Below are positions 29,880-48,715 of a DNA stretch of 64,000 nucleotides, in pieces. Within the stretch, counting starts at the first letter, position 1. Each line of letters begins with the position of its first letter. The DNA is from Rhodospirillaceae bacterium (lineage in GTDB: Bacteria; Pseudomonadota; Alphaproteobacteria; Reyranellales; Reyranellaceae): contig WOUR01000002.1 in the NCBI GenBank assembly GCA_009772935.1, forward strand, positions 1 to 64,000, read 5' to 3'. Position numbers and translations under genes: made by a program. The notes under the pieces are model-generated. The model worked only from the letters and a program-made list of their open reading frames with translations. It was not told where the DNA came from and made no database searches.

Positions 29880-29976
29880 CGCGACAATCTCTCCACATTG
29901 ACGGCACATCTGCGGGCTCGTATACGGGCCGCGGGCCACGCTCCCCCACCGGAGTGCATTTCTTCTGTAAGGGAGA
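29880..29976 (+). promoter_or_regulatory. candidate serC leader RNA with Shine-Dalgarno-sequestering stem
   Basis: The 110-bp leader contains a hairpin GGCTCG-TATA-CGGGCC (with one G-T pair). CTCCC at 29941-29945 can pair either with the nearby GGAG (29951-29954) or with GGGAG (29971-29975), the serC ribosome-binding site. A conserved serC leader motif is described upstream of alphaproteobacterial serC-serA operons, its last stem covering the ribosome-binding site. The context fits, but I have not matched the consensus. Confidence 0.45.
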
Positions 29977-29982
29977 ATGACA

Positions 29983-35902: not shown

Positions 35903-35969
35903 TGTCCGAACGAAGCCTTCATCTGCCTCATATCGCTATTAGAAGATATCCGTCGTGCGGTGTGCGGGC

Positions 35970-35985
35970 GGGACGTTAACGTCCC
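35970..35985. promoter_or_regulatory. perfect 16-bp palindrome before the selenoprotein pair
   Basis: GGGACGTTAACGTCCC is an uninterrupted 16-bp palindrome ending 26 bp before ATG 36012. Its size and position suit a dimeric regulator's operator. It could also be a transcribed hairpin, but a zero-loop palindrome favours a DNA site. Confidence 0.5.
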
Positions 35986-36011
35986 TGTCTCTCAAACGAC
36001 GAGGTTCCGCG

Positions 36012-36566
36012 ATGCCCCGTGTCAGCGAGATCGAGGAGGATGGCGGCGACGCCATTCTCAAGGCCGTCTTCGACCGGCAGCGCGAGATGTTCGGCGGCTT
36101 GCTGAACCCGACCAAGGTCATGGCGCATTGCCCGCCGATCCTGAAGGCGGCCGGCATGCTCGGCCAGTCGATCGAAGAGTCCGGCCTCCTGCCGAAGGGC
36201 CTGCCCGCATTGCTCTATGTGCGTGTTGCGACGATCAACGGCTGCCCGTTTTGAATCGATATCAATTCCAGCCGTGTGCTGGAAACGACGGAAGGCGGGA
36301 TGGAGAAGCTGGCCGAGGTCACGGCCTGGCGCGAGAGCAGGTTGTTCAGCGAGGCCGAGCGGCTGGCACTCGAATATGCGGAGCGGATCACCTACACCGA
36401 CCGCAAGGTCGACGAGGCGCTGGTCGATGACCTGGTGAAGTACTTCAGCGAGGCGCAGATCGTCGAGCTTACGGCGGCCATTGCGATGGAGAACTTCCGC
36501 TCGAAGTTCAATCCGGCCCTGGGAATCGAGGCACAGGGCTTCTGCATGGTGCCAAAACGCGGTTAG
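36012..36566 (+). CDS. carboxymuconolactone decarboxylase/AhpD-like selenoprotein with in-frame UGA (Sec81)
   Basis: Reading through TGA 36252-36254 gives a continuous 184-residue protein. Residues 70-85 then read VRVATINGCPF-Sec-IDIN, matching the AhpD/CMD motif NGC-x-[FY]-C-x-D/x-[HN], with selenocysteine in place of the second cysteine of C78-x-x-C81. Downstream residues (SSRVLETTEGGMEKLAEVTAWRESRLFSEAERLALEYAERIT) are intact, typical CMD-family sequence, so the gene is not decayed. CMD/AhpD-like proteins are thiol peroxidase-type redox proteins, and Sec forms of AhpD/CMD families are known. A bacterial SECIS-like hairpin follows the TGA. It is first in a two-gene unit with a second TGA-containing gene 32 bp downstream. 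Confidence 0.82.
36252..36284 (+). promoter_or_regulatory. candidate bacterial SECIS element of the CMD-like gene
   Basis: After TGA 36252-36254, TTCCAGC (36266-36272), loop CGTGT (36273-36277) and GCTGGAA (36278-36284) form a perfect 7-bp hairpin. The loop begins 18 nt after the TGA and has G as its second base. This fits the known bacterial SECIS rules (short stem, small apical loop with an early G, 16-37 nt from the UGA). Confidence 0.75.
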
Positions 36567-36598: not shown

Positions 36599-37456
36599 AT
36601 GACCGAGACCGTCCGCTATATGGAGCGCACGAGGGACTACTACCGCGCCCTCGGCTATCCGTCCGACTATGTGTGGGCGCGGTTCGAAGCGGTTCCCTTC
36701 GCGAACCTCGCCAAGCCCCTGTCACAGTCGAGGATCGGCCTCGTTACGACCGCAAGTCCGCCCGACCTCGGCAACCGCGATGCGTCCGGCAGGCGGCAGG
36801 TCTGGTCGGGCGAGATCTCGGCGGCGCCAGACAGGCTCTTCACCGACAACCTCGCCTGGGACAAGGAATCGACGCATACCGACGACCGGGCGAGCTTTCT
36901 TCCGATCGAAGCTGTTCAGCACTGGGCAGACGAGGGCGTGGTCGGTGGTCTGGCGCACCGGTTCCACGGCGTCCCGACCGAGTACAGCCAGCGCAAGACG
37001 ACGGAACTCGATGCGCCGCAGGTCCTGGCGCGATTGCGCGCCGACGGCGCCGATGTGGCATTGCTCTCCCCGCTTTGACCCGTCTGCCACCAAACCGTGA
37101 GTTTGGTCGCCCGTCACCTCGAGGCCAACGGACTGCCGACAGTGATCGTCGGCTCCGCCTTCGACATCGTCGAGTATTGCGGCGTGCCGCGTTTCCTATT
37201 CACGGATTTCCCGCTGGGCAATCCGTGTGGCCCGCCGTGGCGGCAGGACCTGCAGCGCAAGATCGCAGAGCAGGCGCTGGATCTCGTGCGCGATGCCGAT
37301 GTGTCGCGCACCACACGCAAGTCGGATGTGCTCTGGCCGTCCGACGACGACTGGCACCCGCGCTATGGGCGCGTAAAGCCGGAGGATGTCGAGCGCCTCA
37401 GAGCACTGGGCGAAGAGAGGCGGCGCAAGCATTCAGAGGCACGGAAGCCGGGGTAG
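36599..37456 (+). CDS. GrdB/PrdB-like (glycine/sarcosine/betaine reductase B family) selenoprotein with in-frame UGA (Sec160)
   Basis: Reading through TGA 37076-37078 gives a 285-residue protein. Around the TGA the sequence is GADVALLSPL-Sec-PVCHQTVSLVARHLEANGLPTVIVG, which matches the U-x-x-C centre of GrdB/PrdB (Sec160, Cys163). The C-terminal FTDFPLGNPCGPPW corresponds to the HPLGNP segment of that family. Both halves are intact and in one frame. Clostridial GrdB and PrdB are catalytic selenoproteins of amino-acid reductases. This short proteobacterial version has no partner subunits nearby, so its reaction is unknown. GTG 36590 is an alternative start. It is co-oriented with the CMD-like selenoprotein gene. 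Confidence 0.82.
37076..37107 (+). promoter_or_regulatory. candidate bacterial SECIS element of the GrdB-like gene
   Basis: After TGA 37076-37078, ACCAAAC (37089-37095), loop CGTGA (37096-37100) and GTTTGGT (37101-37107) form a perfect 7-bp hairpin whose loop starts 17 nt after the TGA. Loop and geometry nearly copy the hairpin after the first TGA (CGTGT, 7 bp, 18 nt), although the stems are unrelated in sequence. Confidence 0.75.

Positions 37457-46049: not shown

Positions 46050-48715
<2,666 letters not shown>

Follow-up and report, generated by a model that had tools for sequence, protein, structure and literature searches.

Two adjacent genes on the forward strand of the window (the whole 64,000-nucleotide stretch of DNA analysed here) are each interrupted by an in-frame TGA. 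The first, P1 (36012–36566, +), encodes a predicted CMD/AhpD-fold (YciW-like) selenoprotein of 184 residues with Sec at position 81; the second, P2 (36599–37456, +), whose ATG lies 32 bases past the stop codon of P1, encodes a predicted PrdB/GrdB-like selenoprotein of 285 residues with Sec at position 160 (UPVC). The reading frame of P1 extends from the ATG at 36012 to a TAG ending at 36566, and its single interruption is the TGA at 36252–36254 (+). Translating this codon as U yields the 184 residues and the context INGC78-P-F-U81-IDIN, which places Sec at the second position of C78-P-F-U81. The product consists of one CMD domain (PF02627; 31.3 bits, above the gathering cut-off of 23). A first-pass annotation of this DNA had described a frame open on both sides of the TGA, a CMD protein resulting from read-through, and a TGA occupying the second Cys of a C-x-x-C motif; all of this agrees with the present analysis (NGCPF-U-ID, with Cys in homologues). 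As it also anticipated, standard ORF calling divides P1 into two fragments (35955–36254 and 36276–36566). Because standard gene callers cut both P1 and P2 at the UGA, proteins of this kind readily go missing from annotation.

A scan of genome contigs identified 62 relatives of P1. At the aligned codon, 57 related loci (58 with the window) carry TGA, and none carries TAA or TAG; the TGA-bearing loci span Alpha-, Beta-, and Gammaproteobacteria and Rokubacteria. Cys is encoded at this codon in three relatives from the scan (L079, L080, and L083) and is also found at the Sec81 position in homologues L135–L141. Across the order, 69 matches to P1 (62–100% identity), each with exactly one TGA, were found in 68 of 76 genomes, and cultured carriers include Reyranella massiliensis 521, R. 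soli, R. aquatilis, Enhydrobacter aerosaccus, and Vineibacter terrae. The genome from which the window stems has Reyranella as its closest relatives, and the nearest homologues of P1 (92–93% identical) are those of Reyranella MAGs. As it is a 6.0-Mb draft of 124 contigs (98.5% complete), the TGA could in principle be a sequencing or assembly error confined to one contig, in which case re-sequencing would reveal TGC or TGT at 36252–36254, as the first-pass annotation had pointed out. However, the same TGA is present in single-contig and type-strain assemblies (R. massiliensis 521, R. soli, R. aquatilis, and E. aerosaccus). Its recurrence in 57 other loci shows that it is not a sequencing error; independent genomes thus refute this explanation, the probability of which is practically nil.

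The part of P1 past the TGA is evidently maintained. Compared with 18 relatives (dS 0.18–0.76), codons 82–182 have dN/dS values of about 0.11–0.25, that is, they are under purifying selection, which argues that this part is translated. A gene broken at codon 81 by a nonsense mutation, the remainder of which is decaying, would likewise be left as two fragments by standard translation stopping at the TGA. Yet the TGA is kept in 57 other loci from several classes, selection downstream of it is purifying, and a covarying SECIS follows it (see below). The conserved TGA and the conserved downstream frame therefore refute a pseudogene, which we regard as very improbable; that a random nonsense mutation was unlikely had already been surmised, and the occurrence of TGA, never TAA or TAG, at 57 related loci bears this out. 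Alternatively, the TGA could be a true stop and the downstream half could be synthesized as a second polypeptide from its own GTG at 36276. Although an ORF at 36276–36566 exists, no codons of the region are more invariant than those directly past the TGA, the CxxU motif would stay incomplete, and the Cys homologues are single uninterrupted proteins, which makes two separate polypeptides highly unlikely.

In bacteria, SelA, SelC, and SelD make Sec-tRNA, and SelB binds a hairpin after the UGA, which leads to insertion of Sec instead of termination. The four corresponding genes, which the first-pass annotation had proposed to look for, are all present in the host genome: selA (564.7 bits) and selB (387.9 bits), both scoring over their cut-offs, lie together with the gene for tRNA-Sec (selC; 71.5 bits) on contig C61, and selD (287.9 bits) lies on contig C4. 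A few kilobases upstream of selA, selB, and selC, contig C61 (locus L089) also carries a formate dehydrogenase alpha gene with an in-frame UGA (RIUHGP), followed by a hairpin with an AGUCU loop at a distance from the TGA similar to that in P1. Within the order, 69 of 76 genomes have selA. No selA match was obtained from five of the 68 with a Sec form, which is ascribed to incompleteness, as all five are drafts; one betaproteobacterial Sec-form genome, also a draft, is likewise without a match. The frame of P1 would also be open if UGA were reassigned (e.g., to Trp or another near-cognate residue) or read through without selenium. But many genes of the group end in TGA, which means that UGA is a stop elsewhere, and the full sel machinery, the Cys at the TGA position in homologues, and the SECIS after the TGA all speak against such decoding, leaving it hardly credible.

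The SECIS hairpin of P1 (36266–36284, +; UUCCAGC-CGUGU-GCUGGAA) is positioned 11 nt past the UGA and comprises a 7-bp stem and a 5-nt loop, CGUGU, of which G and U are invariant. The bacterial SECIS pattern given in PMC1088965 and PMC4607533 is a small apical loop containing guanosine. Among relatives, the stem varies in a compensatory manner (UUCCGUC/GACGGAA, UUCCGCG/CGCGGAA, UUCCCUC/GAGGGAU, and others): 87.8% of cells are paired, with two-sided changes in five of the seven pairs (42 distinct sequences), compared with 32–56% when the partner is moved by one to three columns. RNAalifold produced a weak consensus on all P1 sequences, partly because five relatives (L070, L073, L076, L077, and L082) use a shifted register with a 4-nt loop; the hairpin was, hence, judged on the named structure rather than on that consensus. 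The loop in the P1 gene of L066 is AGUCU, as in the formate dehydrogenase SECIS of the host genome. When the window was scanned for hairpins (stem of at least 6 bp, NGU loop, 10–12 nt after a TGA), 3 of its 1426 TGA trinucleotides, both strands included, passed, two of which are the TGAs of P1 and P2. The third, at 47940 on the minus strand, was dismissed as a chance occurrence, its frame having more TGAs on both sides. An Rfam scan of the window reported only a tRNA and a serC leader, with no SECIS family at threshold. Run on the genome, a covariance model of the P1 SECIS matched nothing but P1 itself (next best E = 1.8) and is thus too gene-specific for listing the selenoproteome. Together, the sel genes, the recurrent TGA, the covarying SECIS, and the purifying selection past the TGA support what the first-pass annotation had called a probable selenoprotein; judged by sequence, P1 is almost certainly a genuine selenoprotein gene.

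The evidence for P2 is of the same kind. Its TGA (37076–37078, +) lies in the context LLSPL-U-PVC-HQTV and is predicted to be read as Sec; this TGA, the SECIS elements, and the complete set of sel genes had all escaped the first-pass annotation. The SECIS hairpin of P2 (37089–37107, +; ACCAAAC-CGUGA-GUUUGGU) follows 10 nt past the UGA. In relatives and paralogues keeping the Gln and Leu encoded here, CAA is invariably accompanied by TTG and CAG by CTG, a coupling of synonymous codons that is explained by an RNA stem and not by the protein. In the alignment, 98.7% of cells are paired, versus 16–36% when slid, and dN/dS past the TGA is 0.17–0.28, indicating purifying selection. Within the order, 74 of the 76 genomes contain relatives of P2, almost all of which carry one TGA. 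The protein matches PrdB of D-proline reductase (TIGR04483; E 1.2e-19, residues 34–234) and, more weakly, GrdB (PF07355). It has kept the U-x-x-C of PrdB, but its score of 70.7 bits is far under the TIGR04483 cut-off of 300; by its sequence, P2 is a member of a family related to PrdB, not PrdB itself. A search for PrdA gave no match in the genome, nor in any control genome, so that its absence is not claimed. The structure model of P2 is confident (pLDDT 87.0), and a Foldseek search with it returned no significant match among solved structures.

Counting P1, P2, the formate dehydrogenase gene, and four further PrdB-like genes in which a TGA is followed by a hairpin, the host genome contains at least seven Sec genes, five of them PrdB-like, which characterizes Reyranella, within the Alphaproteobacteria, as a selenoprotein-rich lineage. 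The four additional PrdB-like genes are located on C107 (one), C62 (a tandem pair), and C48 (one). One copy of the C62 pair has UPLD, with Asp for the second Cys. Directly after this pair lies a glutaredoxin gene (PF00462; L129, 5340–5636, −), a hint at an electron donor. The copy on C107 is followed by a CoA-transferase gene.

The best family match of P1 is NF053654 (GroundWater_YciW, NCBIfam; 126.7 bits, residues 1–176), a model which matches all 19 aligned relatives of P1 as well. P1 shares length and domain with the proteins of this family, described as "YciW-related (seleno)protein," but scores far under the curated cut-off of 310 and, therefore, belongs to a related but distinct clade. 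Against the peroxidase-related enzymes of TIGR01926, it reaches 33.7 bits, under the curated cut-off of 81.8. The earlier designation "CMD/AhpD-like" holds for the fold and can be refined to the YciW/"peroxidase-related" branch; it does not extend to the proton relay of AhpD, the Glu and His of which are absent. With the AhpD-like selenoproteins (COG2128/TIGR01926) from the Sargasso Sea and GOS data, P1 has in common, going by their description, the CMD fold, the CxxU motif, and a bacterial SECIS. By profile search and tree, the YciW-like Cys proteins, including those of the enterobacterial type, belong to the family of P1. They differ from it in having Cys instead of Sec (CxxC, mostly with Asn at the AhpD His position), and the six sampled genomes of the enterobacterial-type family do have selA. 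We take the enterobacterial-type group to be E. coli YciW.

Sec and Cys forms are cleanly separated. In a tree of 74 sequences, all 57 Sec forms fall on one side of a single branch (100/100), with not one Cys form among them. Of the genomes checked, selA was present in 16 of 17 with a Sec form and absent from 11 of 17 with a Cys form; the six Cys-form genomes with selA all belong to one family (f50). A Sec clade of the AhpD fold that, as sampled, never reverts to Cys is a good subject for studying what Sec does beyond Cys.

As for the novelty of these proteins, Sec-containing AhpD-like CxxU and PrdB UxxC proteins have been on record from marine metagenomes since 2005 (PMC1088965 and PMC2398784), and the reviews PMC9312934 and PMC13188914 list both among selenoproteins, so that the first-pass annotation was right in stating that Sec forms of AhpD/CMD-like families are known. 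A search of the open-access literature for Reyranella together with selenoproteins returned nothing relevant. Thus, the families of P1 and P2 are already known, and what was not found described, in the passages of these sources or in the family libraries searched, is the Reyranella branch, the pairing of P1 with P2, and the Sec-rich lineage.

The AlphaFold model of P1 is all-helical (pLDDT 88.6, pTM 0.82). Its top Foldseek match is PA0269 (2ijc; TM 0.86 by target length), and further matches are AhpD-like proteins, among them the debrominase Bmp8. P1 shares with PA0269 and AhpD of Mycobacterium tuberculosis the same helix-hairpin with a CxxC/CxxU centre. The activity of AhpD depends on a proton relay of five residues, Glu118, Cys130, His132, Cys133, and His137 (PMC3141380). 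P1 has Ala66, Cys78, Phe80, Sec81, and Asn85 instead, that is, only the two chalcogen positions are kept. With the relay Glu and His absent, what we claim for P1 is the fold and a redox centre of the selenol/thiol type, not canonical AhpD chemistry. The Cys members of the clade also lack the relay Glu and His, which makes their absence a trait of the clade; the idea that Sec replaced Cys after the relay had been lost was dropped for the same reason. Cys178, in a QGFC motif, is invariant in the 19 aligned members, Sec and Cys forms alike, and may act as resolving residue, in a region where the confidence of the model is low.

From these features, a route from gene to function can be proposed. 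SelA, SelC, and SelD of the host, the genes for which were found, would make Sec-tRNA, and SelB would bind the hairpin present on the P1 mRNA after the UGA, leading to Sec insertion rather than termination. The product would be an all-helical oxidoreductase of the AhpD/CMD fold with a C78-x-x-Sec81 centre, and its role is likely that of a selenol/thiol oxidoreductase or peroxidase. Sec81 would attack an oxidized substrate, for example a peroxide, disulfide, or sulfenic acid. The resulting selenyl-sulfide would be resolved by C78 or the conserved C178, and glutaredoxin or thioredoxin would serve as electron source; we give this course of the reaction about an even chance. P2, PrdB/GrdB-like and with U-x-x-C as its centre, would be made as a selenoprotein in the same way as P1.

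P1 and P2 are adjacent not only in close relatives (L024–L030, L033, and L081) but in the more distant genome G039 (72% and 69% identity) as well, and the two genes likewise stand side by side in R. aquatilis. In most other Reyranella, P1 stands alone, and the genes downstream of it, on the other strand, encode a binding protein of the TctC type and a flavoprotein. An obligate P1–P2 operon as a general rule was therefore rejected; the two proteins might function jointly, but P1 must also work alone. In the window, both are probably on the same transcript; a sigma-70 scan revealed no promoter-like site. Conceivably, though we consider it rather doubtful, P1 would be a CxxU adaptor passing electrons from selenium to selenium to P2 as UxxC reductase, an alphaproteobacterial analogue of the pair GrdA (CxxU) and GrdB (UxxC) of glycine reductase. 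The available text of PMC1088965, PMC2398784, PMC9312934, and PMC13188914 mentions other adjacent selenoprotein genes (Prx/SelW, Prx-like/AhpD-like, and grdA-grdB); a pair of the P1–P2 type was found neither there nor in the family libraries searched. The PrdB-like P2 matches no solved structure, and the two-gene locus offers a concrete system for testing.

Several observations were made alongside. The rokubacterial P1 (L082, 5241–5401) has kept TGA and SECIS and loses the frame soon after, through a frameshift or an assembly error. In three MAGs labelled Rhizobium (L041), Asaia (L042), and Klebsiella (L068), P1 groups with that of Reyranella or Betaproteobacteria, and the taxon labels look wrong on this basis. 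More distant AhpD-like paralogues (36–38% identity) with one TGA each occur in the same genus (G046:C152:8515–9003 and G026:C162:32536–33048). In a Burkholderiales MAG (L064), a second ORF with an AhpD domain, on the minus strand, has a TGA in frame where CxxC has its second Cys (LGCNYUGNQ), and a possible SECIS, judged by eye, lies ∼13 nt past it. Finally, a serC leader RNA (RF00517) is located at 29929–29981 of the window, upstream of serC and serA, and this serine-pathway block is found upstream of P1 in many relatives, too.
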